From positions 1,302,001-1,366,000 of the forward strand of contig NZ_PTRA01000001.1 in assembly GCF_002943425.1 (NCBI RefSeq): a stretch of DNA of 64,000 bases, given 5' to 3'. The stretch's first letter is position 1, and the number at the start of each line of letters is the position of its first letter. Below are positions 4,106 to 35,833 of this stretch, in pieces. Source of the stretch: Siphonobacter curvatus. GTDB lineage: Bacteria; Bacteroidota; Bacteroidia; Cytophagales; Spirosomataceae. The notes below the pieces were generated by a model, which made no database searches, had not been told where the DNA came from, and saw only the letters and a program-made list of their open reading frames with translations. A program made the position numbers and the translations under genes.

Positions 4106-4116
4106 ACCTGATACTC

Positions 4117-5675: not shown

Positions 5676-5710
5676 CCCCGATCATTCCATGACGGTCATA
5701 AATCGGGGTG
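5676..5710. repeat. REP-like palindrome (ACCCCGAT...ATCGGGGT)
   Basis: Eight-base complementary ends ACCCCGAT/ATCGGGGT enclose a 19-base centre that contains its own small hairpin (ATGAC/GTCAT). The ends match the arms of the hairpin just upstream, indicating a second copy of the same element. Confidence 0.6.
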
Positions 5711-10109: not shown

Positions 10110-10252
10110 GGTTAGGTGTTGGTTGTTAATTAATGGTTGTTGGTTGATGGATCCTGTTGGGTTTTGTTGAATCAAGAGTTGAAAGAAGAATACAAGAGAT
10201 GATGTTCTACGATTTCGCTAATAAAGTCCATAGGACTGACCCATGCATTAAC

Positions 10253-10270
10253 CCCGGATTTCAATCCGGG
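10253..10270. repeat. REP-like palindrome (CCCGGATT-TC-AATCCGGG)
   Basis: Perfect 8-bp stem with a two-base centre, 48 bases upstream of the acetylesterase start. It belongs to the CCCGGAT/ATCCGGG variant of the intergenic palindrome family. Confidence 0.6.
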
Positions 10271-10317
10271 AGACCAGCAATCTCAGTCCAGTACCTCCAT
10301 TTTCATTCGTAAGCGTC

Positions 10318-11736: not shown

Positions 11737-11802
11737 GGATTCGCATCGATTTTCAGCAGTTTAACGCTTTTCGGAACGTGAACGAAAGCCAGTATTGAAA
11801 GC

Positions 11803-14589: not shown

Positions 14590-14658
14590 TACATGCTCGG
14601 GACAGCAAAACGGTATACAAACAGATAACCTTAGCCTCTCGAACGTTTAACAGATACC

Positions 14659-17406
14659 ATGAAACGCTACGTACTCATCCTGCTGCTGCCTTTTTTTCTG
14701 TTCGCCTTCGATCAGAAACCAACGGCCTTGCGGGTCGGTGACCTGCGAATTGAGGGACGCGTGAATCCGGAAGGAATCGATGCCCGACAGCCCCGTTTCA
14801 GCTGGCAGCTCACGAGCGAGCAACGAAAACTGCAGCAGACGGTCTACCAGATTCTGGTCGCTTCGAGCGAAGAAAAACTGGCAGTGAATGAAGGCGATCT
14901 CTGGGATTCGGGAAAAGTAAACGCCGACCAGAGTATCCAGAATCCGTATCAGGGGGAAACGTTGAAAAGCAGGACCGAGGCGTTCTGGAAAGTGAAAATC
15001 TGGACCAATCAGGGCGAAAGTGACTGGAGTATGCCGCAGCATTTCAGCATGGGGCAGCTCTACGCGGTTGACTGGAAAGGCCGCTGGATTGGGCTGGATC
15101 GGGCCTTCGCCTGGGATACGGAAACGCAGTTTTCCCGCCTGTCGGCCCGGTATTTCCGCAAGGAGTTTACCCCGAAAAGAGAAATCAAACGGGCGAAGGT
15201 ATACATCATCGGACTGGGTTTGTACGAACTCTACCTGAACGGACAGAAAGTAGGCGACCAAGTCCTGGCTCCCGCTCCAACGGATTACACGCAGGGCGTC
15301 AAGTACAATACTTTCGACGTTACTGCACTACTGAAATCGGGTAAAAATGCCATCGGGACTATTTTGGGTAACGGCCGTTACTACACGATGCGGCAGGCCT
15401 ATAAACCTTACAAAATCAAGACGTTTGGTTACCCAAAACTGCTGCTGAATCTGGTATTAACCTATGCCGATGGCTCGACGGAGTGGATCACAACCGATGA
15501 TTCCTGGAGAGCCACGGCCGACGGCCCGATTCGTACCAACAACGAATACGACGGCGAAGAGTACGACGCGACGAAAGAACTGCCGGGATGGAGTACCGCA
15601 GGTTTCAACGATCAGAAGTGGCTGAAAGCGGAATTTGTGCAGGAGCCGGGCGGAGCCTACGAAGCCCAGATGAATGAAAACATGAAGGTGATGGAGACAG
15701 TAAAACCCGTATCGATCAAACCTTTAAAAACGGGGGGCTACGTGCTGGATATGGGTCAGAATCTGGCGGGCTGGGTTCGGCTGAAGGTACAGGGTAAACG
15801 CGGCGACCGGATCAAACTCCGCTTTGCCGAAACATTGCAGGAAAACGGCGAACTGTTCGTCCGCAACCTTCGCGATGCCAAAGTGACGGACGTGTACACG
15901 CTGAAGGGCGGCGGTACGGAAACCTGGGAGCCGACGTTTGTGTACCACGGGTTTCGATACGTGGAAATTACAGGTTTTCCGGGCGTACCCAAACTCGAAA
16001 ATTTTGAAGGACGCGTAGTCTATGATGATATACCGACGATTGGTACGTTTACCTCTTCCAACCCAACGCTGAATCAGATTTTCAAGAATGCGTACTGGGG
16101 CATTCGGAGCAATTACAAAGGAATGCCCGTCGATTGTCCGCAACGCAACGAGCGGCAACCCTGGTTGGGCGACCGGAGCACGGGGGCGTACGGAGAGAGT
16201 TTTGTGTTTGATAACAGTCGGCTATATGCCAAGTGGCTGGATGATATTCAGCAGGCCCAGAAAGCCGACGGGAGTATCCCCGACGTCGCTCCGGCCTTTT
16301 GGCGGTACTACAGCGACAATGTCACCTGGCCGGGCACGTATCTGATGGTGGCAAACATGCTGTATCGGCAGTTTGGCGACACGGAATCGATACGGAAACA
16401 CTATCCCTCCATGCAGAAATGGATGGCCTACATGGCCGCTCAGTACACCAAAGATGGCCTTATTACCAAGGATAAATACGGCGACTGGTGCGTACCGCCG
16501 GAATCAAAAGAGCTCATCCACGCCAAAGGTCCGGCTCTGCAAACGGATGGCGTGCTGCTGGCTTCAGCTACGTACGTCGGTCTGCTGGATTTGATGCAGC
16601 AATTTGCTCAGTTGTTACAGAAAACGGAAGAGGCTCGTACGTACGAGCAACAGGCAGTGGCGATGAAAAAGGCTTTCAATGAGAAGTTCTTCCAGGCTTC
16701 CACGGGGCAGTACAGCAATAATACGGTCACGGCGAATTTGCTGCCACTGATGTACGGGATTGTACCCGAGAAACAGCAGTCGCAGGTGTTTACTAGTATC
16801 GTCAATAAGATCGTGAAGGAGCAGAAATCGCACATTAGTACGGGCGTGATTGGTACGCAGTGGCTCATGCGGGGACTGGCCCAGCACGGTCGGCCCGATC
16901 TGGCCTATACGCTGGCAACCAACCGCGATTATCCGAGCTGGGGCTACATGGTGGAAAACAGTGCTACCACCATTTGGGAATTATGGAACGGCAATACGGC
17001 CAATCCGGAAATGAATTCGGCCAATCATGTGATGTTGCTGGGGGATTTACTGATTTGGTACTACGAGCATATCGCCGGAATTAAGGCTCAGACACCGGGT
17101 TTCAAAGTCATTGAAATGAAACCGGATTTTCCGGAAGGGCTGACGGAAGTAGACGCCTCGTATCGCTCGGGCTACGGATTGATTCAGTCCACCTGGAAGA
17201 AAGAAAAAGGACGGCTGAACTGGTCGATTCAAGTTCCGGGCAATGCCCAGGCACAGGTCTATATCCCCGCCCGCTCCGTGGATGAAATCAAAGAAAACGG
17301 CAAAAAGGTGACGGCCCTGGAAGGGGTGAAGTTGGTAAAGAAAGAAGGCAATCGCGTAGTACTGAATGTGAGCTCAGGAACATATCGGTTTGAGGTCAAC
17401 CAATAA
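14659..17406 (+). CDS. GH78 alpha-L-rhamnosidase (first of three)
   Basis: Exported enzyme that releases terminal alpha-L-rhamnose. The signal peptide is short (FLFAFDQKP). The full multidomain layout of GH78 is present: a fibronectin-like N-domain (about 22-130), a sugar-binding domain (about 165-325, YIIGLGLYELYLNGQKVGD), a concanavalin-like domain (about 350-450), an (alpha/alpha)6 catalytic barrel (about 460-790) and a C-terminal beta-sandwich. The catalytic signature is at 492-505 (DCPQRNERQPWLGD): the acid Glu is kept, but the usual Asp before it is Asn. WGYMVENSATTIWELWNG carries the second conserved acid region. Rhamnose is a major constituent of RG-I and RG-II, consistent with the locus. 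Confidence 0.92.
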   Translation: MKRYVLILLLPFFLFAFDQKPTALRVGDLRIEGRVNPEGIDARQPRFSWQLTSEQRKLQQTVYQILVASSEEKLAVNEGDLWDSGKVNADQSIQNPYQGETLKSRTEAFWKVKIWTNQGESDWSMPQHFSMGQLYAVDWKGRWIGLDRAFAWDTETQFSRLSARYFRKEFTPKREIKRAKVYIIGLGLYELYLNGQKVGDQVLAPAPTDYTQGVKYNTFDVTALLKSGKNAIGTILGNGRYYTMRQAYKPYKIKTFGYPKLLLNLVLTYADGSTEWITTDDSWRATADGPIRTNNEYDGEEYDATKELPGWSTAGFNDQKWLKAEFVQEPGGAYEAQMNENMKVMETVKPVSIKPLKTGGYVLDMGQNLAGWVRLKVQGKRGDRIKLRFAETLQENGELFVRNLRDAKVTDVYTLKGGGTETWEPTFVYHGFRYVEITGFPGVPKLENFEGRVVYDDIPTIGTFTSSNPTLNQIFKNAYWGIRSNYKGMPVDCPQRNERQPWLGDRSTGAYGESFVFDNSRLYAKWLDDIQQAQKADGSIPDVAPAFWRYYSDNVTWPGTYLMVANMLYRQFGDTESIRKHYPSMQKWMAYMAAQYTKDGLITKDKYGDWCVPPESKELIHAKGPALQTDGVLLASATYVGLLDLMQQFAQLLQKTEEARTYEQQAVAMKKAFNEKFFQASTGQYSNNTVTANLLPLMYGIVPEKQQSQVFTSIVNKIVKEQKSHISTGVIGTQWLMRGLAQHGRPDLAYTLATNRDYPSWGYMVENSATTIWELWNGNTANPEMNSANHVMLLGDLLIWYYEHIAGIKAQTPGFKVIEMKPDFPEGLTEVDASYRSGYGLIQSTWKKEKGRLNWSIQVPGNAQAQVYIPARSVDEIKENGKKVTALEGVKLVKKEGNRVVLNVSSGTYRFEVNQ

Positions 17407-17492
17407 TTCATCCAAAATACCCGCGGATAATCCCAGGATCCGATCCCAAGGAAAGTCGAAGTAAGAAGTCCGGAGGATTTCAATGTGCATAG

Positions 17493-17511
17493 CCCCGGGT
17501 AGAACCCGGGG
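17493..17511. repeat. REP-like palindrome (CCCCGGGT-AGA-ACCCGGGG)
   Basis: Perfect 8-bp stem with a three-base loop in the spacer between the GH78 gene and the following sialidase-like gene; variant arm sequence of the same intergenic family. Confidence 0.55.
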
Positions 17512-17593
17512 ACGGGACGGCAAAATCCCCGAAATCCCCAAAAAACAGTAACCTCGGAAACCGATGAAAATCCGGCATCCTAACATAAAAACC

Positions 17594-18730
17594 ATGAATA
17601 CTTTCCAAACCTACCTATTCCTGGCGGGTGGTCTGCTGGCCGCCCACTTAACCCAGGCCCAGGTCAAAAAATGGCAGAGCGGCTTAGTCAAACACGAAGC
17701 CATTTTTGAGTCAGCCCCTTTCCCGGAAAGCCACTCGGCCACCATTGTCGAAACGCCCAAAGGTCTGGTAACGGCCTGGTTTGGAGGGACGAAGGAGCGG
17801 AATCCGGACGTCTGTATTTACGTCAGTCGGCTGGAAAAAGGGCAGTGGACAACTCCCCAAAACGTCGCCAATGGCATCGTAAACGATACCCTTCGGTATC
17901 CCACCTGGAACCCGGTGTTGTACCAGATACCCAACGGAGAGCTGCTGTTATTTTACAAAATCGGTCCGAGTCCGAGTAAATGGCAGGGCTGGATGAAAAC
18001 GTCGTCGGACGGGGGCCTAACCTGGTCGTCGGCAAAATCCTTGCCCGAAGGCTATATCGGCCCCGTCAAAAACAAACCCATCTTACTGGAAAATGGCAAC
18101 CTGTTTTGCCCAACGAGCACCGAAGGCAAGGGCTGGAAAATCCATTTTGAAGTAACCGCGGATCAGGGAAAAACCTGGCGTAAAGTCGGACCGATCAACG
18201 ACGGAAAAACGCTCAACGCCATTCAGCCCAGTATCCTCAAACACGGGAAAGGCAAGCTACAGATTCTGGCCCGCAGCAAAGACCGGGCTATTCTGGAATC
18301 CTGGTCGAACGACAATGGGGAAACTTGGTCGCCGCTGGCGAAAACCAATCTGCCCAATAATAACTCCGGTACCGATGCCGTCACCCTGAAAGACGGTCGG
18401 CAGGCCCTGGTGTATAACCACGTGCTGCCGCCGGGCGACAAAGCCAAAGGTCCGCGGACGCCCCTGAATCTCTCCATTTCCGAAGACGGCAAAAACTGGT
18501 CGGCGGCGGTGATTATCGAAGACTCACCCATCAGTCAGTATTCCTATCCGTCGATCATTCAAACGTCGGATGGACTCATTCACGTCGTGTATACCTGGCG
18601 TCGCCAGAAAATCAAACACGCCGTGATCGACCCGAAAAAGATGAAACTGATTCCGATCAAAGACGGCGTCTGGCCATCGATCAAAGGCTATACGCCCCCA
18701 CAGGGCGGCGAGATGACGAAAGACGGATAA
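17594..18730 (+). CDS. Exported sialidase-like (BNR-repeat) six-bladed propeller hydrolase
   Basis: Sec signal ending HLTQAQ, then a single propeller of the BNR/exo-sialidase superfamily with clear Asp boxes: SSDGGLTWSS, TADQGKTWRK, SNDNGETWSP and SEDGKNWSA. Family-typical blocks are FPESHSATIVETPKGLVTAWFGG near the N-terminus and ISQYSYPSIIQTSDGLIHVVYTW near the C-terminus. In plant-glycan PULs such proteins are usually not true sialidases; related propellers act on Kdo/Dha, rhamnose or uronic-acid linkages. The start is the ATG at 17594, because the upstream in-frame ATG only adds a charged, non-signal extension. The position in the PUL suggests a side-chain hydrolase; specificity is unknown. 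Confidence 0.72.
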   Translation: MNTFQTYLFLAGGLLAAHLTQAQVKKWQSGLVKHEAIFESAPFPESHSATIVETPKGLVTAWFGGTKERNPDVCIYVSRLEKGQWTTPQNVANGIVNDTLRYPTWNPVLYQIPNGELLLFYKIGPSPSKWQGWMKTSSDGGLTWSSAKSLPEGYIGPVKNKPILLENGNLFCPTSTEGKGWKIHFEVTADQGKTWRKVGPINDGKTLNAIQPSILKHGKGKLQILARSKDRAILESWSNDNGETWSPLAKTNLPNNNSGTDAVTLKDGRQALVYNHVLPPGDKAKGPRTPLNLSISEDGKNWSAAVIIEDSPISQYSYPSIIQTSDGLIHVVYTWRRQKIKHAVIDPKKMKLIPIKDGVWPSIKGYTPPQGGEMTKDG

Positions 18731-18775
18731 ACCGATCGGGACGGTTTGAATCCACGAAATGAATCCTCTATAACC

Positions 18776-20152
18776 ATGAAACGAATCCTTGTTTTACTCC
18801 TGCTGCTGGGGGCGAAAACCTACGCTCAAATCTCCGACGACGCCTTCCGAAAACCCTTGAAAGAGGTGATTCAGGAAATCGAAACCCAGTACGCGGTAAA
18901 AATCCGGTATCCTGAAGACTTGGTGAAGGATCGGCAGATTACCTACGCCGACTGGCGGTTTCGCCCCGATGTCGAGCAGACGATGACGAATATCTTCGCC
19001 TCGCAGGACATTACATTTACGAAGGAAGGCGACAAAAAATACAAACTGCAGGCCTTTCAGTATCACCTGAAAACGCCCAAAGAAGGCAAGCAGCAGCTCG
19101 ACTATCTGGCCTCTCTGTACAAGGATCAGGCGAGTTGGGAAACGCGTAAAGCCGAACTCAAAAGCTGTATGCGGACGGCGTTAAAGCTGGACCAGCTACC
19201 CGCGACTCCGAAAAGCCAACCGATCATTACCAACAAACGAACTTTCGATGGCTATACCGTCGAAAACGTAGCCATCGAAACCTTGCCGGGGATGTACGTC
19301 TGCGGATCGTTGTACAAACCTACGCATGCCAAAGGGTTAATGCCCGTTATCCTCAATCCCGACGGTCATTTTGGCGACGGACGCTACCGCTCTGATTCCC
19401 AGTACCGCTGTGCCATGCAGGCCCGGATGGGAGCGATGGCGTTTAGTTACGACCTCTTTGCCTGGGGTGAATCACTGCTGCAATTCAAATCCGCCGACCA
19501 CCGTCGGAGTCTGGCCAATACGATTCAGATTCTGAACGGGATGCGAATTCTCGACTGGCTGTTGACCCAGAAAAATGCTGATCCGGCCCGCGTTGCGGTA
19601 ACGGGTGGTTCGGGCGGCGGTAGCCAGACGATGTTGTTGTCGGCTCTCGATGATCGTATAGATTTAAGCGTTCCGGTGGTCATGACTTCCTCGTACCACA
19701 GCGGCGGTTGTCCCTGCGAGAGTGGAATGGGCGTGCACCTCTGCGGCCACGGTACCAACAACGTGGAGATGGCAGCCATGGCGGCTCCGCGTCCACAACT
19801 AGTCATTTCCGACGGCAAAGACTGGACCCAATACGTTCCCGAACATGAGTTTCCTTTCCTGCAACGAACCTACGGCTTCTACGGTCCTTCGGCGGTGATC
19901 AAAAACGTGCATTTGTCGGAAGAAGGACACGATTACGGCATCAATAAGCGACTGGCTCTGTACCAGTTTCTGGCCGATCAGTTCAAGCTGGATACGAAGC
20001 AAGTGAAAAACACAGCGGGTCAATTCGACGAATCGAAATGCACGATTGAGAAGTATCCCGCGATGTACGTATTCGGTGAAAAAGGGGAGAACTTACCCGC
20101 GAATGCTGTGCGGAGTTTTGAGGAACTGGAGCAGAAAATTGGATTCAAATAG
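18776..20152 (+). CDS. Exported alpha/beta-hydrolase esterase with N-terminal STN/DUF4974-like domain
   Basis: A signal peptide (to about residue 18) is followed by an approximately 70-residue alpha/beta module (20-92) with the pattern of STN or FecR-C-terminal DUF4974 domains: FRKPLKEVIQEIE, YAVKIRYPEDL, a second beta-alpha unit, then ITFTKEGDKKYKL. The rest is an alpha/beta hydrolase of the acetyl-xylan-esterase/prolyl-oligopeptidase type with the nucleophile elbow VTGGSGGGSQ (Ser279), GHFGDGRYR near the oxyanion region and a late His in LSEEGHDYG. It probably deacylates pectic oligosaccharides in the periplasm (inference). An in-frame TTG 30 bases upstream was rejected because the ATG gives a normal signal. 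The domain fusion is unusual and is discussed in the findings. Confidence 0.75.
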   Translation: MKRILVLLLLLGAKTYAQISDDAFRKPLKEVIQEIETQYAVKIRYPEDLVKDRQITYADWRFRPDVEQTMTNIFASQDITFTKEGDKKYKLQAFQYHLKTPKEGKQQLDYLASLYKDQASWETRKAELKSCMRTALKLDQLPATPKSQPIITNKRTFDGYTVENVAIETLPGMYVCGSLYKPTHAKGLMPVILNPDGHFGDGRYRSDSQYRCAMQARMGAMAFSYDLFAWGESLLQFKSADHRRSLANTIQILNGMRILDWLLTQKNADPARVAVTGGSGGGSQTMLLSALDDRIDLSVPVVMTSSYHSGGCPCESGMGVHLCGHGTNNVEMAAMAAPRPQLVISDGKDWTQYVPEHEFPFLQRTYGFYGPSAVIKNVHLSEEGHDYGINKRLALYQFLADQFKLDTKQVKNTAGQFDESKCTIEKYPAMYVFGEKGENLPANAVRSFEELEQKIGFK

Positions 20153-20207
20153 CGGTTGGGTACTCATTTGGCCTGCTTACTAGCGATCGTTAAAAGCAAG
20201 AAATAGC

Positions 20208-21098
20208 ATGAAAAACCTGAATCGTCGTCAGTTTTTGGGTCAGTCGGCTTTGGTGCTGACGGCTCTGTATGGTTCGCCGTTTGAAGTGTTTGCTAAAGAA
20301 AAGCAAGCGTACAAAATCGCCGTAGTGGATCTGATGATCCTGAAACGGCAGAAACTCGGAGCTTTTCAACTGACCAAAGAAATTGGAGCCGACGGTCTGG
20401 AAGTGGATATGGGTAGACTGGGCAATCGGGAAACCTTTGATAGTCAGTTAGGTAAGCCCGAAGTACGGCAGCAGTTTCTGGATAAAGCCAAAGAATTGAA
20501 GTTGGAAATCTGTTCGTTGGCGATGAGTGGATTTTACGCCCAAAGCTTTGCAACGCGACCGACCTACGAGCGAATGGTGCAGGACTGCATCGATACCATG
20601 AAAGCCATGCGGGTAAAGGTGGCCTTTTTGCCCCTGGGTACGCAGGGTGATCTGGTTAAAAATCCGGAACTGCGTCCGGCGATTGTGGAGCGATTGAAAG
20701 TGGTGGGGAAGATGGCGAAAAAAGCGGGTGTGGTCATCGGGATTGAAACGTCCCTGGATGCGAAGGGCGAGGTAGCGTTACTGGATGAAATCGGCTCGAA
20801 ACACATTCAAAGCTACTTCAACTTCTCCAATCCCCTGAAAGCCGGCCGAGACCTGCACGAAGAACTTCGCACGCTCGGCAAAAAACGCATCTGCATGATT
20901 CACTGCACCGACGAGGATGGCGTATGGCTGGAAAACAACCCGCGGCTGGATCTAAAAAAGGTCAAACAAACGCTCGACGACATGGACTGGAAAGGCTGGC
21001 TTGTCATCGAACGGTCTCGCGATGCCAACGATCCCCGCAACGTAAAGAAAAATTTCGGAGCGAATACGGCGTATCTCAAATCCATTTTTCAGGCGTAA
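20208..21098 (+). CDS. Tat-exported sugar phosphate isomerase/epimerase-like TIM-barrel protein
   Basis: The N-terminus carries a twin-arginine signal (NRRQFLGQSALVLTALYG), implying folding in the cytoplasm, probably with a bound metal, before export. The body is a xylose-isomerase-like TIM barrel with metal-ligand regions expected at barrel strand ends: EIGADGLEVDMG, VVIGIETSLDAKGE, CMIHCTDEDG and WLVIERSRD. Length (296 aa) fits the family. Such periplasmic isomerase-like proteins accompany Gfo/Idh/MocA oxidoreductases in Bacteroidota sugar loci, as here with the gene at 24.2 kb. It could epimerise or isomerise an unusual released sugar; the substrate cannot be read from sequence. Confidence 0.85.
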   Translation: MKNLNRRQFLGQSALVLTALYGSPFEVFAKEKQAYKIAVVDLMILKRQKLGAFQLTKEIGADGLEVDMGRLGNRETFDSQLGKPEVRQQFLDKAKELKLEICSLAMSGFYAQSFATRPTYERMVQDCIDTMKAMRVKVAFLPLGTQGDLVKNPELRPAIVERLKVVGKMAKKAGVVIGIETSLDAKGEVALLDEIGSKHIQSYFNFSNPLKAGRDLHEELRTLGKKRICMIHCTDEDGVWLENNPRLDLKKVKQTLDDMDWKGWLVIERSRDANDPRNVKKNFGANTAYLKSIFQA

Positions 21099-21103
21099 CC
21101 ATT

Positions 21104-21140
21104 AACCCCGGGGGGTGTTCCCTATCAATAGCCTGGGGTT
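21104..21140. repeat. Imperfect REP-like inverted repeat before the GH141-type gene
   Basis: AACCCC (21104-21109) pairs with GGGGTT (21135-21140), with a CCCCGGGGGG core inside. It ends 20 bases before the start codon of the next gene, so it would lie in or near its 5' untranslated region. Degenerate compared with other copies. Confidence 0.4.
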
Positions 21141-21159
21141 TCAATCTCAGGTACCTTCG

Positions 21160-23658
21160 ATGAATAAATGTAGTTTCATAGTGCTTGGCATGCTCCTGTG
21201 GTCGACGCTTACCTTCGCCCAGCAGGCCGAAGTGTGGGTATCGACCACCGGATCGGACGCGAACGTAGGTAGCCGCGAAAAACCGCTGGCGAGTCTGATG
21301 ATGGCCTTGCGGAAAGTCCGGGAATTACGACGGCTCGCCGATCCTTCCGTACGCACAGGAGCTCATATCTATCTGGCAGGTGGACGGTATTCGCTGGACG
21401 AACCCGTCTTCCTGCGGCCTGAAGATTCGGGAACGGCTGAAAGTCCCACCTGGATTGAAGCGGCTCCCAACGAAAGGTCCGTCCTAAGCGGCGGTGTAAC
21501 GCTAAAGGGCTGGCAGAAAGTGAAAGGAACCGTACCGGGATTGCCCAAAACTAGTACCGGAAAAGTCTGGGTGACGGACGTTCCCTTTATCGGTGGGCGG
21601 CCCTTCGAATTTAGGCAGCTATGGGTCAACGGACAAAAAGCCACGCGGGCGAAGGATACACCCTACGGAACGATGAACCGGATTTTGTCTTGGAATAAAG
21701 CCGAGCAAACCTGCTGGATTCCGGCTCCGAAGTTCGGTGGCTTACCCCAGGCGTATGGTCTCGAATTTTTTATTCATCAGTGGTGGGCCGTAGCGACCTT
21801 ACGCGTCCGGAAAATGGAAGTGCAGGGCGACAGTGCCCAACTCTTTTTTCACCAGCCCGAAAGCCGGATTCAGTCCGAACACCCCTGGCCCGCTCCCTGG
21901 ATTTCGAAAGAAACGGGCAACTCTGCCTATTACCTAATCAATGCGATTCAGTTTCTGGACGAACCCGGCGAATGGTTCCTCGATATCCGAACGCAGAAAC
22001 TCTATTACTATCCAAAAGCGGATGAGAATCTGAGTACTGCCGAAGTCATCGCTCCGTACCTCGAAACGCTGGTACGTATGATGGGTACCGTCGATCATCC
22101 GGTTTCGTACGTGGAGTTCAAAGGCATTGCCTTTGAGCATACGGGCTGGTTGCGACCCTCGCGGGAGGGGCACGTGCCGCATCAGGCGGGTTTGTACATG
22201 CTGGATGCCTACAAGTTGAAAATTCCGGGTACGCCCGAGAAAAAAACATTGGAAAATCAGGCCTGGGTGGGGCGGCCTACGGCGGCGGTGGAAGTTTCCT
22301 ACGCCACGCACACGGGTTTTGAAAACTGCCGGTTCGAGCATCTGGCCTCTACGGGGCTGGACTACCACCGGGGCGTTCAACACAACCACATCACTGGAAA
22401 TCTGTTCCGGGATATCGGCGGTACGGGCATTCAGGCGGGCGTTTTTTCCGACGAAGCCGTGGAAGCTCATTTGCCGTATCAGCCCCAGGATGAACGGGAA
22501 GTTTGTAGCCAGTTAAGTATCCGGAATAATCTGATTACAAACGTAACCAATGAAGACTGGGGTTGCGTGGGCATTGGAGCGGGCTTTGCCCGGAATCTCA
22601 GCATCGAGCACAACGAAATCAACGAAGTCGGCTATAGCGGCATCAGTATGGGCTGGGGCTGGACGCCGACTATCAACGTTATGCGAAACAACCGCATCCG
22701 GGCCAACAAAATTCACCACTACGGCAAGCACATGTACGACGTAGCGGCGATTTACACGCTTTCGGCCCAGCCCGGTTCGCAGATCATCGAAAACGCCATC
22801 GACAGTATTTACAAAGCTCCGTACGCCCACATTCCGCAGCACTGGTTTTATCTGTACACCGACGAAGGCTCCGCGTATTTCACGATTCGGGATAACTGGA
22901 CGCCGACGGAAAAGTACCTGCAAAACGCCAACGGTCCGAACAACGTCTGGGCACACAATGGCCCCTCCGTACCCGACCCTATCAAAAACCGGGCGGGACT
23001 CGAAGCTGCGTATCGGCATCTGTTGAAAGACAATTCAAAGCCGGATGCGTACTGGAAAATTAATGAAGAGAAACCCGTCATCGTAGAACTGATCGCGACG
23101 CAGTCGTTGGATGAGGAGAAACTACGAGCCGTTATGGCGAAAGGGAACGTGCCTACCATGGCTTTGTACCGTTGGGAAAACCACTACGTCATTTTTGAAA
23201 AGATTCAGGATGTATACCTGCTTCGCGAACGTCTAAAAGCGGCGTTTCCCGGTGTGACGATCAAAACCTACGACGACTTATTTTACGAATTCAACCGGAA
23301 AAAATGTGCGGATGCATCCGAAGCGAAGGAATGGGAGCACACGATTCTTACGGCGAATCTCGTCGCTGATCCAAAGCTGCAGCGGGAATACCTCGATTAC
23401 CACGCCACGCAGTTCGAACAATGGCCGCAAGTCTCGAAAGGCTTTTGTAATGCCCAGTTTCAGCAACTGTTACTATTTCGAAACGGGCGGCAACTCATGC
23501 TGGTCATCAGTACTCCTAAGGGCGAAAGCCTGGAAAAGCTGGACCCCAAAACCACCGAAAATAACCCCCGCGTAGTCGAATGGAATCAACGCATGAAGAA
23601 GTATCAGGAAGGCATTCCGGGTACGAAGGCGGGGGAGGTTTGGGTACAGATGAAGTAA
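21160..23658 (+). CDS. GH141-type beta-helix hydrolase fused to L-rhamnose/L-fucose mutarotase-like domain
   Basis: Sec signal (ending TFAQQA), then VWVSTTGSDANVGSREKPLAS, the usual entry of right-handed parallel beta-helix enzymes, and a beta-helix to about residue 610 with rungs such as NHITGNLFRDIGGTGIQAG and NNRIRANKIHHYGKHMYD. This layout matches GH141, whose characterised member is an alpha-L-fucosidase of RG-II (established knowledge). From about residue 638 to the end the sequence changes to two ferredoxin-like halves. The second half has mutarotase hallmarks: EYLDYHATQFEQWPQV, LLLFRNGRQLMLVI, RVVEWNQRMKKYQEG and EVWVQM. A mutarotase domain would interconvert anomers of the released deoxy-sugar. 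The ATG at 21160 is chosen over an upstream GTG because it gives the signal peptide. Confidence 0.78.
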   Translation: MNKCSFIVLGMLLWSTLTFAQQAEVWVSTTGSDANVGSREKPLASLMMALRKVRELRRLADPSVRTGAHIYLAGGRYSLDEPVFLRPEDSGTAESPTWIEAAPNERSVLSGGVTLKGWQKVKGTVPGLPKTSTGKVWVTDVPFIGGRPFEFRQLWVNGQKATRAKDTPYGTMNRILSWNKAEQTCWIPAPKFGGLPQAYGLEFFIHQWWAVATLRVRKMEVQGDSAQLFFHQPESRIQSEHPWPAPWISKETGNSAYYLINAIQFLDEPGEWFLDIRTQKLYYYPKADENLSTAEVIAPYLETLVRMMGTVDHPVSYVEFKGIAFEHTGWLRPSREGHVPHQAGLYMLDAYKLKIPGTPEKKTLENQAWVGRPTAAVEVSYATHTGFENCRFEHLASTGLDYHRGVQHNHITGNLFRDIGGTGIQAGVFSDEAVEAHLPYQPQDEREVCSQLSIRNNLITNVTNEDWGCVGIGAGFARNLSIEHNEINEVGYSGISMGWGWTPTINVMRNNRIRANKIHHYGKHMYDVAAIYTLSAQPGSQIIENAIDSIYKAPYAHIPQHWFYLYTDEGSAYFTIRDNWTPTEKYLQNANGPNNVWAHNGPSVPDPIKNRAGLEAAYRHLLKDNSKPDAYWKINEEKPVIVELIATQSLDEEKLRAVMAKGNVPTMALYRWENHYVIFEKIQDVYLLRERLKAAFPGVTIKTYDDLFYEFNRKKCADASEAKEWEHTILTANLVADPKLQREYLDYHATQFEQWPQVSKGFCNAQFQQLLLFRNGRQLMLVISTPKGESLEKLDPKTTENNPRVVEWNQRMKKYQEGIPGTKAGEVWVQMK

Positions 23659-24155
23659 GATGATTTATAGGTTGTGTTTAATAGACTGAATTTCGCCCTC
23701 AGACGGAGATTGATTATCCGAGCCTAATTACGCCCTCGGGATTGGCTGGCTAGTAGCCGGTGAGCCTTCCAGGCTGGACCTCTCCGTAACTGCCTAGCTT
23801 AGCTCAAGGCAACCGCATTGCCCGCGAGACAGGTTACTCCGTTGCTCACCAGCGGGAGAGGTTTTCATCCACTAACACTAGGTAATGGTTGCTAGTGAGT
23901 AGTTGTTGGAAATGGGAAATTCCGCTATAGACGGCGTAAAACCGCACCCCGTCCTATCGCGAAAAGCCGCTGACTTCATCCACAATGCGGTGGCTTGGAG
24001 CAGGATGAAGTCAGCGGCGTTCGCGATACGGACTAAAAGACCAGCCGTATCTGCGGCCCAAACCCGGTCTAGGTGAATAACGAATTTCTAAAAGAGCAAG
24101 GCTTTACTTAGTCTAGGCAATTCAGAATAATAAAAAATGATTTAAAAATACCTTT
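23659..24155. other. Gene-free 0.5-kb spacer with dense secondary structure
   Basis: No coding frame of any length is credible here. The first half contains several short complementary pairs, including two that cross (23759-23765 with 23844-23850, and 23778-23785 with 23855-23862) and small hairpins at 23763-23775 and 23808-23822. The second half contains the long inverted repeat listed separately. The last 100 bases are AT-rich and likely hold the promoter of the oxidoreductase gene. No known RNA family was recognised. Confidence 0.5.
23951..24033. repeat. Long inverted repeat, ~30-base arms
   Basis: The arms at 23951-23981 and 24003-24033 share GCCGCTGACTTCATCC/GGATGAAGTCAGCGGC perfectly and TATCGCGAA/TTCGCGATA perfectly, joined by a small internal mismatch, with a 21-base loop. 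No T-run follows, so it is not an ordinary terminator. It does not match the CCCGAT palindrome family. A non-autonomous mobile remnant or a structured RNA are the main alternatives. Confidence 0.65.
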
Positions 24156-25217
24156 ATGTTAAAGCTAGGAATTTTAGGATTGGGCGAGGGCCGTAGCACT
24201 ATGTCGGCAGCATTGCAGAGTACAAAAATCGAACTGGTCAAAGTCTGTGATCAGAAACTCGAACTCTGTCTGCAACGATCCAAGGAATTTGATTTTTACT
24301 CCTACACCACGCAGTATCAGGACTTGCTCGATGATCCAACTATCGATGCCATCGCCATTTATACCCCCGATAAATTTCACGCCGAGCATACCAAACAGGC
24401 CTTGCTGCACGGCAAGCACGTCGTCTGTACCAAGCCCTTCATTGACGATCTGTCCAAAGCCAAAGAACTCATCGAACTGAGCGATCAGACGGGTAAGAAC
24501 GTCTTCGTTGGGCAAAGCTCCCGCTTCTTCGAGCCCATGAAAAAACAGCGGGCCGACTACGAAGCCGGACTCATTGGCGAGCTGATCACCATCGAAAGCT
24601 ATTACCACGCCGACCACCGCTGGTTTCTGGACAAAGGCTGGTCGCTCGAAAACGCCTTCAAGTGGCTGTACGGCGGTCTGAGTCACCCCGTCGATTTCAT
24701 TCGCTGGTACCTGCCCAACATCGAAGAAGTGATGGGTTATGGAATGCTTAGTTCAAATGGGAAAAACGGCGGTCTCAAAAACGCCGATACCATGCACTTC
24801 ATTTTCAGGGCTACGGACGGACGCATCGCCCGGGTTAGTGGAGCCTATACCGGACCCGTACAGCCCGTCACCCGCGACAGCGAAATGAGCTGCATTCTGC
24901 GGGGTACGGAAGGGTGTAGTCAGGGAGATTACATGGATTTACGGTACGCCATCACCGACAAAACCGGCGAAGAACGCATCCTGACCTGGGAACACAAACT
25001 CAAGCACTACTTCCGCTTTGAGGGAAAAAGTCATCATGCGGGCGAATACCAGAACTACCTCGAATACTTCGCCGACTGCCTGGAAAGCGGCCAGACGGCG
25101 TATCCTGACGTAAAAGAAGGCATCGGAACCGTGGCCTTGTTACAGGCGATGGACCAGTCCCTGCAAACGGGGAAACCCGTAAAAGTGGCGGATTTGCTGC
25201 GTGAACACGGACTTTAA
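24156..25217 (+). CDS. Gfo/Idh/MocA family NAD(P)-dependent sugar oxidoreductase
   Basis: Cytoplasmic enzyme (no signal peptide) with an N-terminal Rossmann domain whose glycine motif is LGILGLGEGRS (residues about 3-13). The family's EKP motif is present as VVCTKPFIDD, with Thr in place of the usual Glu. The C-terminal alpha/beta domain has GGLSHPVDFIRWYLPN, the normal position of the catalytic His/Asp pair. Length (353 aa) is typical. It is followed 54 bp later by a sodium/sugar symporter, so the pair probably imports and oxidises a monosaccharide freed by the PUL enzymes. Which sugar is unknown; rare RG-II sugars are attractive candidates but this is inference. Confidence 0.88.
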   Translation: MLKLGILGLGEGRSTMSAALQSTKIELVKVCDQKLELCLQRSKEFDFYSYTTQYQDLLDDPTIDAIAIYTPDKFHAEHTKQALLHGKHVVCTKPFIDDLSKAKELIELSDQTGKNVFVGQSSRFFEPMKKQRADYEAGLIGELITIESYYHADHRWFLDKGWSLENAFKWLYGGLSHPVDFIRWYLPNIEEVMGYGMLSSNGKNGGLKNADTMHFIFRATDGRIARVSGAYTGPVQPVTRDSEMSCILRGTEGCSQGDYMDLRYAITDKTGEERILTWEHKLKHYFRFEGKSHHAGEYQNYLEYFADCLESGQTAYPDVKEGIGTVALLQAMDQSLQTGKPVKVADLLREHGL

Positions 25218-25271
25218 CTTTCATTCCCGACTTCTTGAAAATCGATCATTTTCCGGGAAGTTAATCTTCGT

Positions 25272-26849
25272 ATGAACAATATCATTGATCGCTTAACGCT
25301 GCTGGACTACGGGATTGTGGCGGCTTACATTCTGATTTTAGCTTTCATCGGTTTTCGAGCCAGTGTAAGCAAAAAATCGGTGGATGAAGAAACGCTTTTT
25401 CTGGCGAACAAATCGCTGGGCTGGGCGAGTATTGGCTTCAACATGTGGGGGACCAACGTCGGGCCGTCGATGCTGCTGGCCTTCGCGAGTATCGGGTATA
25501 GTACGGGGATTGTTGCCATTAATTTTGACTGGTATGCCTTCGTTTTTCTTTTTCTGCTGGCGATTGTTTTCGCTCCGAAATACCTGGCTGCCAACGTCAG
25601 TACCATGCCCGAGTTCATGGGGCAGCGATACGGCGAATCCACGCAAACCATCCTGGCCTGGTATGCTCTCATCAAGATTCTGATTTCCTGGCTTTCGCTC
25701 GGCCTGTTCGCCGGAGGATTTTTGGTACGACAGATTCTGGGCTTACCCATGGGGCCGTCGGTGGTGGTACTGGTCGCTTTTGCCGGATTGTTTGCGTACA
25801 CCGGCGGACTGAAGGCCATCGCCCGCGTCAACGTTTTTCAGATGCTGTTGCTGATCGGCGTATCGCTGACATTGACTCTGTTAGGAATTCAGAAAGTCGG
25901 TGGACTGGAGGCCGTTTACGCCAAAGCCCCCGCCGACTACTGGAGCCTGATTCATCCCGCAGACGATCCAAAATATCCCTGGTACGCCATCCTGCTGGGT
26001 TATCCGGTAGCGGCCATAGCTTTTTTCTGTACCGATCAGGCGATGGTCCAGTCGGTACTGGGAGCCCGCAATCTGGAGCAGGGACAACTGGGCGTCAACT
26101 TCATCGGCTGGCTGAAAATCCTTTCGTTGCCGCTGTTCATTCTGCCCGGCATTCTCTGTTACATTCTGTTCCCCAACCTCAAGGACCCGGCCGAGGCGTA
26201 CATGACGATGGTGACCAACCTCTTCCCGCCCGGACTGAACGGACTGGTCATTGTAGTACTGATTGCCGTACTGGTCGGTACGATTGGCTCGTCGCTAAAT
26301 TCGCTGAGTACGGTGTTCACGATGGATGTGTATGCCCGAAAAATCAACCCCTCGGCTACCAATAAAGACCTGATTCGAGTAGGCCGCCTGACGGTCATTG
26401 CGGGCTGCCTGTTTGCCGTAGGCATGGCCCTGGCCATTGACAGTATCAAAGGACTGAACCTGTTTGATGTGTTTCAATCCGTACTGGGTTTCATCGCTCC
26501 GCCCCTGGCCGTCGTCTTTCTGTTGACGGTATTCTGGAAGCGAACTACGCGATGGGCCGTCAACACCGTTTTATCGGCTGGCTCAGTAGTCAGTCTCGGC
26601 GTCGGCATTGTGTACCTGTGGGTCTTACCGCCCGACCGCTACGATTTCTGGCCGCATTACCTGTTGCTTTCGTTTTTGATTTTCGTGAGCCTGCTGGTAC
26701 TGGCGATGCTGATTTCCGTACTGGATCGGAACCCGACGGTTTATCAGGTCAATACCACACAGGTAGTAGTCAAACCCACGCCCAAAGTCTGGGCGGCCTG
26801 GATTGCTCTGATGATTACGATGCTGACGCTGTATCTGCTGTTTCGATAG
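25272..26849 (+). CDS. SSS-family sodium:solute (sugar) symporter
   Basis: Inner-membrane transporter of about 13-14 hydrophobic helices across 525 residues, typical of the SLC5/SSS family. The first helix is LLDYGIVAAYILILAFIGF. Family features include GWASIGFNMWGTNVGPSMLL (substrate and sodium site region), PEFMGQRYG, and the SSLNSLSTVFTMDVY motif near helix 8. Members next to glycoside hydrolases usually carry monosaccharides such as glucose, galactose or rhamnose-like sugars. It follows the oxidoreductase gene closely and precedes a GH78 gene, so it likely imports a final product of the locus. It is the only inner-membrane sugar transporter seen in the window. Confidence 0.92.
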   Translation: MNNIIDRLTLLDYGIVAAYILILAFIGFRASVSKKSVDEETLFLANKSLGWASIGFNMWGTNVGPSMLLAFASIGYSTGIVAINFDWYAFVFLFLLAIVFAPKYLAANVSTMPEFMGQRYGESTQTILAWYALIKILISWLSLGLFAGGFLVRQILGLPMGPSVVVLVAFAGLFAYTGGLKAIARVNVFQMLLLIGVSLTLTLLGIQKVGGLEAVYAKAPADYWSLIHPADDPKYPWYAILLGYPVAAIAFFCTDQAMVQSVLGARNLEQGQLGVNFIGWLKILSLPLFILPGILCYILFPNLKDPAEAYMTMVTNLFPPGLNGLVIVVLIAVLVGTIGSSLNSLSTVFTMDVYARKINPSATNKDLIRVGRLTVIAGCLFAVGMALAIDSIKGLNLFDVFQSVLGFIAPPLAVVFLLTVFWKRTTRWAVNTVLSAGSVVSLGVGIVYLWVLPPDRYDFWPHYLLLSFLIFVSLLVLAMLISVLDRNPTVYQVNTTQVVVKPTPKVWAAWIALMITMLTLYLLFR

Positions 26850-26925
26850 GAACAGAAGTTGGGTTAAAGTAAACTAGTGCAAGAGTCTGTAGTACTGACG
26901 GATTAACATTTTTGATTCAAGTCCA

Positions 26926-29079
26926 ATGAAAAAGAACCTCTTCCTCCTAAGCCTGCTCCTGATGAACGTCTCGGTATTCGCTCAGGCGACCTGGATCTGG
27001 TATCCCGGCGATTACGAAATCTGGCTGGGGAACCAAATGCAGAATCGACGTACGGAACGCACGACTTTTATGCCGCCGTTCTGGAAGCTCGATAGTCATT
27101 ACAACCTCATGGATTTTCACAAGGAATTTATCCTGAGCCAACCGGAAGAATTGGAGCTTTTTGTGGAAGGCCGGTACAATGTTAAGCTCGACGGCAAGAT
27201 TCTCATGGGCTATCCCAAACGCATCACGGTACCCGCCGGGAAACATAAAATCAACCTCAAAGTCTTTAACCAGGACCACGTTCCCGCCGTTTTCGTTCGT
27301 GGAAAAACCATACAGTCCGACGCCTCCTGGCGGGTGACATTCGAGGACAAAGAATGGATCGATGAAACGGGAAAAGCTTCCGATCAGTCGGGAACGACCT
27401 GGTTACAGGCGGGCTCCTGGAACTTCAACGATCCGCTCGTACCGCCTTCGCAATTTAAACTGAATACGAAGGAAGAAAACCCCGTGACGGTCGATAAGCA
27501 GGCGAAGTCATTTTTACTGGATTTTGGGAAAGAAACCTTTGGTTTCCTGAAACTGAAAGGTCTGACGGGAAAAGGAAACGTCCGGATTTATTACGGTGAA
27601 TCGAAGGAAGAAGCCCTGGCAACGGAGACCTGTGAAACCACGGATTTTCTGGAAATCAACCAATCCGCCAAACGCGACTCGGTGATGGAACTGACCAAAG
27701 CCTTTCGGTACGTCAACGTTCAGTTTGACGGCAGTGTGGCCATCGACGGCGTTTCCATGCTCTACGAATTCCTGCCCGTCACGGAGCGGGGCGGCTTCCG
27801 TTGTTCCGACGAAGAAATCAATAAAATTTACGACGTTGCTCTGTATACGCTTCATCTGAATACCCGGGAGTTTTTCATCGACGGTATCAAACGTGACCGC
27901 TGGATCTGGTCGGGCGACGCCTCCCAGAGTTACCTGATGAATTACTATTCCTTCTTCGATTCGCCCTCCGTGGCTCGTACCATGCTGGCCTTACGCGGCA
28001 AAGACCCCGTAACGAGCCACATCAATACCATCATGGATTACACCTTTTACTGGTTCATTAGCATTTACGATTACTACCAGTTTACGGGCGACAAGGCCTT
28101 CATCCAACAGTTTTATCCCCGGATGAAGAGTCTTATGGATTACTGCCTGACCCGGCGGAATAAAAACGGGTTGCTCGAAGGCTTGTCCGGCGACTGGGTG
28201 TTTATCGACTGGGCGGAAGGACTAAGCAAAAAAGGAGAGGTGAGTTTCGAGCAGTTACTCTTCGCCCGGAGTCTGGAAACAATGGCCTTGTGTGCCGGAA
28301 TCGTGAACCATACTGAGGACGCCAGTCAGTACGCTCAACTGGCCAAAGAAGTAAAAGGTAAGCTTTTTCAGTATTACTGGAATTCCGAAAAACACGCTCT
28401 GGTACACAGCCGGGTGGACGGCGTTTCAACCCCGCACGTAACCCGGTACGCGAATATGTTCGCCGTCTTTTTCGATTACCTCAACTCTGCCCAAAAACAA
28501 GAAGTGAAACAACACGTGTTACTAAACAATCAGGTACCGAAAATCACGACGCCGTACATGCGTTTTTACGAGCTGGAAGCCCTCTGTGCCCTGGGCGAAC
28601 AGCCGTATGTAACCAAAGAGATGAAGGACTACTGGGGCGGAATGCTCAAACTCGGAGCGACCTCTTTCTGGGAAGAATACAATCCTGATAAAAAAGGAGC
28701 CGAACATTACGCCATGTACGGTCGCGAATTTGGTAAGAGCCTGTGTCACGCCTGGGGAGCCAGTCCGCTGTACCTGCTGGGCAAGTATTATTTGGGTGTA
28801 AAACCAACGGCGCCGGCGTATCAGACCTATCTGATTGAGCCGAATCTGGGTGGTTTGCAGTGGATCGAAGGAAAAGTGCCGACGCCGCAGGGAGAGGTAG
28901 AGGTGTATTGCAGTGCTAAAGAAATCAAGGTGACGGGTGCCGCCGGAACGGGGACGCTTCGCTTCAAAAGCAAAAAGAAACCCACCAGCAAGCAGGGCGA
29001 AATCCGATCTACGGGGGCCGGTTTGTACGAAATGACGATTGAAAAGGGGAAAAGTTATCGGGTGAGTTACTCGCTGTAG
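26926..29079 (+). CDS. GH78-like alpha-L-rhamnosidase, short form (second of three)
   Basis: Sec signal ending SVFAQA, then a compact N-terminal beta domain (ATWIWYPGDYEIWLGNQMQ), a sugar-binding sandwich (about 60-280) and an (alpha/alpha)6 barrel from about residue 285. The catalytic block is FIDGIKRDRWIWSGDASQS (317-335), where the usual DCPxRxER is replaced by a KRDR form. LSGDWVFIDWAEG and TSFWEEYNPDKK supply further conserved acids. At 717 residues it is shorter than the classical GH78 proteins either side and resembles the sub-type found in RG-II loci of Bacteroides (from memory). The altered acid region implies a different linkage preference from the other two GH78 enzymes. Confidence 0.85.
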   Translation: MKKNLFLLSLLLMNVSVFAQATWIWYPGDYEIWLGNQMQNRRTERTTFMPPFWKLDSHYNLMDFHKEFILSQPEELELFVEGRYNVKLDGKILMGYPKRITVPAGKHKINLKVFNQDHVPAVFVRGKTIQSDASWRVTFEDKEWIDETGKASDQSGTTWLQAGSWNFNDPLVPPSQFKLNTKEENPVTVDKQAKSFLLDFGKETFGFLKLKGLTGKGNVRIYYGESKEEALATETCETTDFLEINQSAKRDSVMELTKAFRYVNVQFDGSVAIDGVSMLYEFLPVTERGGFRCSDEEINKIYDVALYTLHLNTREFFIDGIKRDRWIWSGDASQSYLMNYYSFFDSPSVARTMLALRGKDPVTSHINTIMDYTFYWFISIYDYYQFTGDKAFIQQFYPRMKSLMDYCLTRRNKNGLLEGLSGDWVFIDWAEGLSKKGEVSFEQLLFARSLETMALCAGIVNHTEDASQYAQLAKEVKGKLFQYYWNSEKHALVHSRVDGVSTPHVTRYANMFAVFFDYLNSAQKQEVKQHVLLNNQVPKITTPYMRFYELEALCALGEQPYVTKEMKDYWGGMLKLGATSFWEEYNPDKKGAEHYAMYGREFGKSLCHAWGASPLYLLGKYYLGVKPTAPAYQTYLIEPNLGGLQWIEGKVPTPQGEVEVYCSAKEIKVTGAAGTGTLRFKSKKKPTSKQGEIRSTGAGLYEMTIEKGKSYRVSYSL

Positions 29080-29116
29080 AATTGGAGTAGTTTGTTCATT
29101 TTTATGAGTTGTTAAA

Positions 29117-31900: not shown

Positions 31901-32060
31901 TTAAACCTATAGACCGCATAACTACCAATCGCTAGCCTTTGCAAACGTTACTGGTTCGGACGAAAGCTGTAAGGCTGGTGATTCGGAGAAGACATAGGCT
32001 GGCGGCAATTTCATACAATCTTTAGAAAAAATGATAGAGAATACTGCGGATTTACGCCTT

Positions 32061-32068
32061 TAGTTTTG
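32061..32068 (+). promoter_or_regulatory. Candidate -7 box TAGTTTTG
   Basis: Matches the Bacteroidota sigma-A consensus TAnnTTTG and lies 42 bases before the start codon of the five-bladed propeller gene. The same 11 bases, TAGTTTTGTAA, recur before the gene at 60.6 kb. No TTTG at the -33 position was found, so support is partial. Confidence 0.4.
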
Positions 32069-32110
32069 TAACGTTCAAAGAAGTAACTGCACAAAACAGG
32101 TCTTTTTCGC

Positions 32111-33214
32111 ATGATTCGTACGCCGCTGATTCTACTATATTCGCTTCTTGCCTCGATTGCCTTTGCCCAGAAAACCAGTGTCCCTGCAACGGAAATGCAG
32201 CAGTTGTACGACGAAGTCAAAACGCCCTATAAGTACGGTCTGGTGATGGTCACGGAGGATAATTCCAAAAAGATGGATTGTCCCACCGTGTTCAGGAAAG
32301 GTAAACACTGGTACATGACCTATTTGCAGTACGACGGTCGCGGGTACGAAACCTGGTTAGCCGAAAGTAAAGACCTCTTGCACTGGGAAAACAAAGGCCG
32401 TCTGCTCTCCTTCTCCGCCGATACGACCCTGTGGGATGCTCACCAGAAAGCGGGATATAACGCTCTGCAGGATACGGAATGGAACGGGAGTTACGAGCTA
32501 AAAACCTATCAGAATAAATACTGGATGTCCTATATCGGGGGTAATGGCCGGGGTTACGAAGCGGGTGATTTATCCATCGGTATGGCCTATACAACGAAAG
32601 AACCTACCCAGGTACACGAATGGCAACGGTTTCCTAAACCCCTATTCACGGCCAAAGACCCCGATACCCGCTGGTGGGAAAATCGCAAGCTGTTTAAAAG
32701 TTCAGTCATCGAGGATCCGCAAAGGCTGACGGGACATCGCTTTGTGATGTACTACAACGCCAACGGGGATTCGGCGAAAAACAACCTGAAAACCCGCTGG
32801 TTCGAACGCATCGGCATGGCTGTTTCTGACGATATGGAGCATTGGCAACGCTTCGAAGCCGAACCCGTTCTCCAGCATCCGGTGGGTATTACGGGTGATG
32901 CAGTTCTCCAGAAAATCAAAGGTACCTGGGTGATGTTTTACTTCGGAGCCTTCTGGGAAGATCAGAAAGCCAAGGGGTTTAACCGTTTCGCTGCGTCCAA
33001 AGACCTCGTGCACTGGACCGACTGGAAGGGCTCCAATCTGATTGAGCCTTCCGAACCCTACGATGAATTATACGCCCACAAATCGTTCGTCCTCAAGCAT
33101 CAAGGCGTCGTATATCATTTCTACTGTGCGGTGAATAAGAAAGATCAGCGGGGAATCGCTGTCGCTACTTCAAAAGATGTAGGAAAGAGTGAAAAGGAAT
33201 TTACGAAAGAGTAA
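32111..33214 (+). CDS. Exported five-bladed beta-propeller glycosidase-like protein
   Basis: A signal peptide (ASIAFAQ) is followed by one propeller of the GH32/43/62/68/117/130/137 type. Blade-defining strands are KMDCPTVFRKGKHWYMTYL, YETWLAESKDLLHWENKG, YWMSYIGGNGRGYEAGDL, GIAVATSKD and FAASKDLVHWTDW. Candidate acids are Asp in KMDCPTV, Glu in EDPQRL and Asp or Glu around ITGDAV. I cannot assign a family: GH137, a five-bladed beta-L-arabinofuranosidase of RG-II, is one possibility given the neighbours, and an uncharacterised clan member is equally plausible. The arrangement is clearly exported and glycan-directed. Confidence 0.65.
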   Translation: MIRTPLILLYSLLASIAFAQKTSVPATEMQQLYDEVKTPYKYGLVMVTEDNSKKMDCPTVFRKGKHWYMTYLQYDGRGYETWLAESKDLLHWENKGRLLSFSADTTLWDAHQKAGYNALQDTEWNGSYELKTYQNKYWMSYIGGNGRGYEAGDLSIGMAYTTKEPTQVHEWQRFPKPLFTAKDPDTRWWENRKLFKSSVIEDPQRLTGHRFVMYYNANGDSAKNNLKTRWFERIGMAVSDDMEHWQRFEAEPVLQHPVGITGDAVLQKIKGTWVMFYFGAFWEDQKAKGFNRFAASKDLVHWTDWKGSNLIEPSEPYDELYAHKSFVLKHQGVVYHFYCAVNKKDQRGIAVATSKDVGKSEKEFTKE

Positions 33215-33242
33215 GGTTCGAGGGATTCCCGGACAATCCCGG

Positions 33243-33348
33243 TATGGCATCCGGGGCTAATCACATTCAAACCTTCCGGGTTTAGGTCGATGTTGGCCGA
33301 ATAAGCCCGGAGGGCTTCCATTTAAATAGCCCCGGATGCCATCCGGGG
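33243..33348. repeat. Compound REP-like inverted repeat abutting a start codon
   Basis: A perfect 16-base inverted repeat (33244-33259 with 33327-33342, core GGCATCCGGGGCTA) encloses a smaller hairpin AAGCCC/GGGCTT (33303-33317). The right arm extends into the palindrome CCCCGGAT-GCC-ATCCGGGG at 33330-33348. The structure ends seven bases before the next gene's ATG. Confidence 0.7.
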
Positions 33349-33355
33349 TACTGGT

Positions 33356-35728: not shown

Positions 35729-35833
35729 TACCGTTCTTTTCCAAGGAATAAAACTTAAAATCCGTCTTTCCCCTAAAGCGTTCGGGCCTTTAGAAAAGGC
35801 GAAGGTTTTGAGTTGATACCGTAATTTACTTGT

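Follow-up and report, generated by a model that had tools for sequence, protein, structure and literature searches.

A GH141 hydrolase fused to an L-fucose mutarotase-like domain in a pectin-type locus of Siphonobacter curvatus, and its possible role in sugar uptake

A gene in a 64,000-nucleotide stretch of the Siphonobacter curvatus genome (contig NZ_PTRA01000001.1, positions 1,302,001 to 1,366,000; hereafter the window, whose own numbering is used throughout) encodes a GH141 enzyme that continues without a stop into a mutarotase-related domain. An earlier note on this DNA had read the product as a single exported chain, and that reading holds: the open reading frame (ORF) codes for 832 amino acids and matches both the solved GH141 enzyme 5MQP and the mutarotase family PF05336. 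We propose, with a probability of about 0.6 and from sequence comparison, that the protein is a periplasmic hydrolase-mutarotase of a rhamnogalacturonan II (RG-II)-type pectin locus, which would equilibrate the released L-fucose end for import.

Architecture of the fused protein

The coding sequence (21160..23658, +) begins at an ATG at position 21160 within an open frame of 21115..23658 (+), contains no internal stop and ends at a stop codon at 23656-23658. A probable Sec signal peptide, read by eye, occupies approximately residues 1-20 (21160..21219, +), and a pattern search found no lipobox, so a periplasmic location is predicted for the protein. Siphonobacter sp. BAB-5405 has a protein (L014) that is 95% identical to it over residues 1-832. 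Residues 22-622 (21223..23025, +) align with BT_1002, an RG-II alpha-L-fucosidase of Bacteroides thetaiotaomicron (PDB 5MQP), at an E value of 1.3e-217. This part includes the insertion domain GH141_M at residues 134-286 (21559..22017, +; PF21231, E 3.4e-70), and a Beta_helix Pfam match is also present. The catalytic aspartates D523 and D564 of BT_1002 correspond in the alignment to Asp527 (22738..22740, +) and Asp568 (22861..22863, +), matched by their spacing of 41, with the solved chain numbered 5 higher in the alignment; both are invariant across 38 aligned sequences. According to PMC10154630, which gives the mutagenesis, and to PMC12786026, D523 and D564 are essential in BT_1002. The latter source also places a xylanase and endo-fucanases in GH141, and the former, a 2023 review, calls the retaining or inverting stereochemistry of the family undemonstrated. 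The GH141 part of the fusion is BT_1002-like, and alpha-L-fucosidase activity on RG-II is predicted for it on the basis of this likeness.

The C-terminal domain, of about 195 residues, has two halves. The second, residues 727-832 (23338..23655, +), is assigned as a FucM-like mutarotase half by Pfam, profile match and alignment. Its match to rhaM (PF05336) spans residues 735-832 with an E value of 4.7e-10 and 40.1 bits against a curated cut-off of 23.4, and hhalign aligns it with single-domain mutarotases at a probability of 99 (E 4e-18, 35% identity). The active site of the L-rhamnose mutarotase RhaM presumably consists of Tyr18, His22 (the catalytic residue) and Trp76. In an alignment of 76 rows, made up of 75 relatives (three of them separate copies) and the window protein, the equivalents Tyr744 (23389..23391, +) and His748 (23401..23403, +) are present in all rows and Trp808 (23581..23583, +) in 75, the other row being cut; Trp755 is likewise present in 76/76. 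His748 is followed by a three-residue insertion (23407..23415, +) with Gln751 in 76/76 rows. The His-to-Trp spacing is 6 residues in all 26 two-half copies checked, and in single-domain relatives it is 3 residues in 24/26 and 5 in 2/26. These matches place the domain in the mutarotase family PF05336, and mutarotase activity is predicted for it.

The first half, residues 639-726 (23074..23337, +), is probably a divergent, decayed mutarotase half, as judged from invariant residues and calibrated hhalign comparisons. Trp672, Tyr709 and Cys716 are present in 76/76 rows. The profile of this half aligned with single-domain mutarotases at a probability of 31% over 25 columns, at 56% over 35 columns when RhaM and the solved L-fucose mutarotase 7BYU were added to the target, and at 5% with RhaM and 7BYU alone. 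The hhalign score of 24.5 compares with a maximum of 17.6 among 100 column-shuffled profiles and of 13.4 among 20 decoys taken as chunks of GH141, so that no control reached it. The earlier note had seen L-rhamnose mutarotase hallmarks in two halves; both of the strings that it quoted are present and the second half falls in PF05336, but the first half matches no Pfam family (best 0.083, unrelated).

Cys716 (23305..23307, +) in the first half and Cys763 (23446..23448, +) in the second are each present in 76/76 rows, and we infer a disulfide between them. The domain contains exactly two cysteines in 70 of the 76 rows and three in the other 6. No equivalent of Cys763 was found in the 26 single-domain relatives checked, where the commonest residues are R, T, S and K, and the one-domain lipoprotein L144 has Lys at this position. 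A protein of about 230 amino acids (L170) looks like an independent tandem of two mutarotase halves, the first with Tyr and His and a score of 73.6 bits, the second weak (7.1 bits, E 6e-4 in a two-sequence search). Its surroundings (L170/L176, around G345:C4:78479) contain fucP (TIGR00885, above cut-off), an enolase-family dehydratase, two short-chain dehydrogenase/reductase (SDR) genes and an FAA hydrolase. L-fucose is likely but not certain to be the sugar at this site, because fucP is nearby yet the best model of the FAA hydrolase, below its cut-off, is that of the L-rhamnonate route.

Sugar specificity of the C-terminal domain

Signature residues and gene context point to a place for the C-terminal domain on the L-fucose (FucM-like) rather than the L-rhamnose mutarotase branch, and the L-rhamnose label given to it in the earlier note is not upheld. 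Gln816 and Trp828 are common to 7BYU and to 26/26 single-domain relatives, and neither occurs in the three solved rhamnose mutarotases (1X8D, 2QLX and 6HHN). The fusion protein has no NCBIfam match up to an E value of 0.01, and hence none to the RhaM equivalog TIGR02625. The same genome has a separate, dedicated TIGR02625 RhaM (129.9 bits versus 99.6) beside genes for L-rhamnose isomerase and rhamnulose-phosphate aldolase. For one relative, the best solved match is 7BYU/7BYW (7e-11), followed by 1X8D (2e-5). Copies of the two-half domain, whether fused or separate, fall into one group in a 58-sequence tree, with an ultrafast bootstrap (UFBoot) value of 87, which is 99 when the lipoprotein L144 is included.

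Gene context was assessed at 20 loci chosen from the 56 single-domain matches listed. At 12 of the 20, an SDR protein encoded within about 5 kb passes the cut-off of NF052481, the model for L-fucose dehydrogenase. Because many SDR models matched the same 11 members at E 1e-30, the 12 close SDR proteins were scanned one by one; each of them scores above the curated 300-bit threshold, and the general SDR model PRK08628 outscores NF052481 for 5 of the 12. Two remoter SDR neighbours gave no match at 1e-75. GH29 matches account for 3 of the 72 nearest neighbours in 18 of the 20 loci. Elsewhere in the S. curvatus genome, a GH29 alpha-L-fucosidase gene is followed, within about 12 bases and in the same orientation, by a fucose-type mutarotase gene (L095:8309-10290); another such mutarotase of this genome sits between dxr and yigZ and is uninformative on fucose.

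The fusion and its neighbours in other genomes

The earlier note had proposed a search for the same architecture across Bacteroidota, and the fusion is found repeatedly there. Eighty loci were retained from 105 relatives in a search that included C-terminal peptides and is hence biased to fused copies. Among these 80 loci, which come from other records, GH141 and the domain share one frame at 72, two of which (L056 and L091) are truncated by the end of their contig; the other eight are unfused (L059, L060, L061, L071, L080, L090, L092 and L093). A less biased scan of 395 genomes of the phylum gave 18 strong GH141_M matches (E below 1e-60), of which 15 lie in frames of 833-872 amino acids, and the same 15 genomes hold all 15 full-length matches to the two-half domain. 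The remaining three strong frames (617, 600 and 693 amino acids) are without it, and the 17 weaker GH141_M matches coincide with no two-half domain match. Since the fusion recurs in other records at these frequencies, a missed stop or a chimeric assembly, the doubt that the earlier note had raised about the join, is ruled out. Speaking for the artefact reading, the fused copy in one of five genomes of the same genus (G005:C78:12535-12831) is interrupted in its mutarotase part by an in-frame TAG. Judged by their genera, three of which had their order checked, fused copies are spread over Cytophagales, Sphingobacteriales and Chitinophagales.

Separate two-half proteins, in frames of 248-268 amino acids, were found in five of the seven searched genomes with an unfused GH141; one of the five (G413: L061 split pair, L169) also has a second, fused copy outside the usual neighbourhood. 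A profile search at E 1e-3 did not find the two-half domain in two Dysgonomonas genomes, and none was seen within the locus L059. At L060 and L061 the separate domain gene directly follows the GH141 gene. Read by eye, the separate copies start with a signal peptide or lipobox of their own. A frameshift is ruled out as their origin at L060 and L061, where the second ORF opens with a start codon and a lipoprotein-like signal of its own, and likewise at L071/L164. On the tree, the separate copies L060, L061, L071, L165 and L166 are scattered among the fused ones (with weak support), a distribution suggesting that the gene split more than once, the detached part acquiring a signal peptide.

A survey of PF05336 in frames longer than 200 amino acids in the 395 genomes returned the 15 GH141 fusions and four others. 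Of these four, L171 and L173 look on reading like single-domain proteins in a long open frame, L172 looks like a lipoprotein, and L170 is the apparent tandem described above; no fusion of PF05336 to any other hydrolase was seen among these genomes. Viral contigs gave one weak partial match to the domain, and 17 plasmid records matched, none covering 80% of it.

The fusion gene is part of a polysaccharide utilisation locus (959..39214, +) with SusC/D, apiosidase, BT_1020-like, GH2, GH78, BNR, esterase and GH106 genes, which we take to be of RG-II type because homologues of BT_1002 and BT_1020 are present. At 18746-20152 an esterase-like protein (GCE_fung) has a weak FecR_C-like stretch near its N-terminus. 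Downstream of the fusion gene, some 500 bases (23659-24155) hold no listed ORF of at least 120 amino acids. The gene that follows (24156..25217, +) encodes a Gfo/Idh/MocA oxidoreductase for which no signal peptide was seen by eye and whose solved relatives are distant only; next comes an SSF Na+/sugar symporter (25272..26849, +), whose nearest solved chains are sodium/glucose cotransporters. Homologues of the oxidoreductase are present at 70 of the 80 loci and of the symporter at 66, which argues for the role in uptake or in the next enzymatic step that the earlier note had suggested. Three of the ten loci without Gfo/Idh end at contig ends (L024, L054 and L056), six are unfused GH141 loci (L059, L071, L080, L090, L092 and L093) and one, L021, is a real exception.

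In Olivibacter (L071 and L080), the separate mutarotase (L164 and L165) is encoded 5-8 kb from GH141 and directly before the Gfo/Idh and SSF genes. More distant exported mutarotases (L144:4525-4962 and L175:8588-9157) are single-domain PF05336 proteins with lipoprotein-like signals, and each adjoins an SSF gene. In these loci, a Na+/sugar symporter is thus the recurrent partner of the exported mutarotase. The view that mutarotases are normally separate, cytoplasmic proteins is incomplete, as the family also has exported members that are proteins in their own right, several of them bearing lipoprotein signals.

Proposed role, alternatives and related systems

We propose that the GH141 part would cut an alpha-L-fucosyl bond, as BT_1002 does, and release L-fucose, either free or as the reducing end of a short sugar. 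Cytosolic relatives of the mutarotase domain are dimers. Here, the two halves would let one chain form the dimer that these relatives build from two, with the active site in the second half, the first half as a divergent and probably inactive copy of the same fold, and the putative Cys716-Cys763 disulfide holding the two together. Outside the cytoplasm, the domain would bring the anomers of the freed reducing end into equilibrium. The symporter (25272) would thereby be supplied with the anomer that it transports, and oxidation of the imported sugar would fall to the cytosolic Gfo/Idh enzyme (24156); the uptake and oxidation steps are suggested by the conserved gene order.

Several observations weigh against this proposal. 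Neither a profile of the full domain nor one of the second half matched any solved structure, and the second half alone gave weak, unrelated matches to solved chains (best 0.1). The kinship of the first half is weak, with profile probabilities of 5-56% over 25-40 columns, and this half does not match the second (hhalign 0.6% to 15%). Met812 agrees with RhaM, the residue in 7BYU being Cys. On the tree, branches within the fused clade are weakly supported and deep ones poorly; the tree also places 7BYU, which has a long branch, together with RhaM, and its rooting is uncertain. Because of these last two points we call the domain FucM-like and not FucM. The solved chain of BT_1002 and the two Dysgonomonas genomes are without the domain, which is therefore not essential to RG-II use. 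As to the neighbours, the fused locus L021 has neither Gfo/Idh nor SSF within 6 kb, L031-L033 have Gfo/Idh and no SSF within the 6-kb flank, and the separate copy L166 has neither beside it. Finally, FucM takes the free sugar as its substrate. The product of BT_1002, according to PMC10154630, is instead a disaccharide whose L-fucose carries a substituent at O-3.

That product raises the possibility, which we consider somewhat unlikely, that the mutarotase acts not on free L-fucose but on the reducing-end L-fucose of an oligosaccharide such as 2-O-methyl-xylosyl-L-fucose, in a pocket altered by the insertion. Besides the BT_1002 product reported in PMC10154630, the insertion with Gln751 beside the catalytic His would fit, being present in 76/76 rows and at that length in 0/26 single-domain relatives; however, an insertion next to the His may have another purpose, and two single-domain relatives have a two-residue insertion at the same place. 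The domain could also be a binding or assembly module, a mutarotase fold that holds the fucosyl product or dimerises the hydrolase. Fucosidases often carry accessory domains (PMC10154630), one half of the domain looks decayed, and neither the whole domain nor its second half has a solved-structure match. We nevertheless think this reading unlikely, since the first half drifts while Tyr, His and Trp are each retained in at least 75 of the 76 rows, and separate, exported copies of the domain also exist, two of them encoded 5-8 kb away from GH141 and next to the oxidoreductase and symporter genes.

A true L-rhamnose mutarotase, acting on L-rhamnose freed by the neighbouring GH78 and GH106 rhamnosidases, appears quite improbable. 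The Pfam family bears the name rhaM, the locus has several rhamnosidase genes, Met812 is as in RhaM, and the specificity of the domain need not equal the product of its own hydrolase. Against this stand the lack of an NCBIfam match and thus of TIGR02625, the L-fucose-type Gln816 and Trp828, the L-fucose dehydrogenase in 12/20 single-domain loci and the RhaM in the genome's own rhamnose cluster. We prefer the reading of a periplasmic hydrolase-mutarotase that would prepare L-fucose ends for import.

No description of the fusion was found in the literature covered on GH141, FucM and RhaM mutarotases, NanM and RG-II, most subscription papers lying outside this coverage; the earlier note, too, had known of no described enzyme with this pairing. 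Because any Pfam scan shows the architecture, what may be new is limited to the functional reading, the exported pseudo-dimer and the link to the symporter. Mutarotation is usually taken as a spontaneous or cytosolic step. If the proposal is true, a hydrolase that brings its own mutarotase and is linked with a symporter and an oxidoreductase would show extracytoplasmic anomer conversion to be worth selecting for in the use of plant cell walls. The fusion also offers a testable route to the anomer accepted by SGLT-like symporters and to the retaining-or-inverting question in GH141. More tentatively, exported FucM-like mutarotases could be a recurrent, unrecognised component of uptake. Fused to a fucosidase or encoded next to a Na+/sugar symporter, such a secreted one-chain pseudo-dimer would turn the anomer made by the hydrolase into that taken by the symporter, possibly on a reducing-end disaccharide, and the anomer state would in that case be a controlled step when Bacteroidota take up pectin sugars.

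Among known systems, BT_1002 resembles the fusion over the full GH141 part, including both catalytic aspartates and the insertion domain, and in its RG-II-type locus; it differs in that its solved chain (624 amino acids) stops where the mutarotase domain of the fusion starts. The L-fucose mutarotase 7BYU/7BYW, reportedly described by Watanabe in 2020 as that of a non-phosphorylating pathway, shares PF05336, the Tyr, His and Trp residues and the equivalents of Gln816 and Trp828. It is a single domain of about 120 amino acids that we take to be cytosolic, whereas the fusion domain is predicted to be exported and has two halves, a Cys pair, an insertion after the His and a fused hydrolase. RhaM/RhaU (1X8D, 2QLX and 6HHN) share PF05336 and the Tyr, His and Trp equivalents, and the fusion domain differs from them in having no TIGR02625 match, another C-terminal signature and another gene context. 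NanM, the periplasmic sialic acid mutarotase, presumably has an unrelated fold (a Kelch propeller) and is not fused to a hydrolase, unlike the mutarotase here. The likeness lies in the proposed role: according to PMC4646407, NanM converts alpha-Neu5Ac to its beta anomer, the form that SiaPQM transports, and this anomer conversion takes place outside the cytoplasm for the benefit of a transporter.

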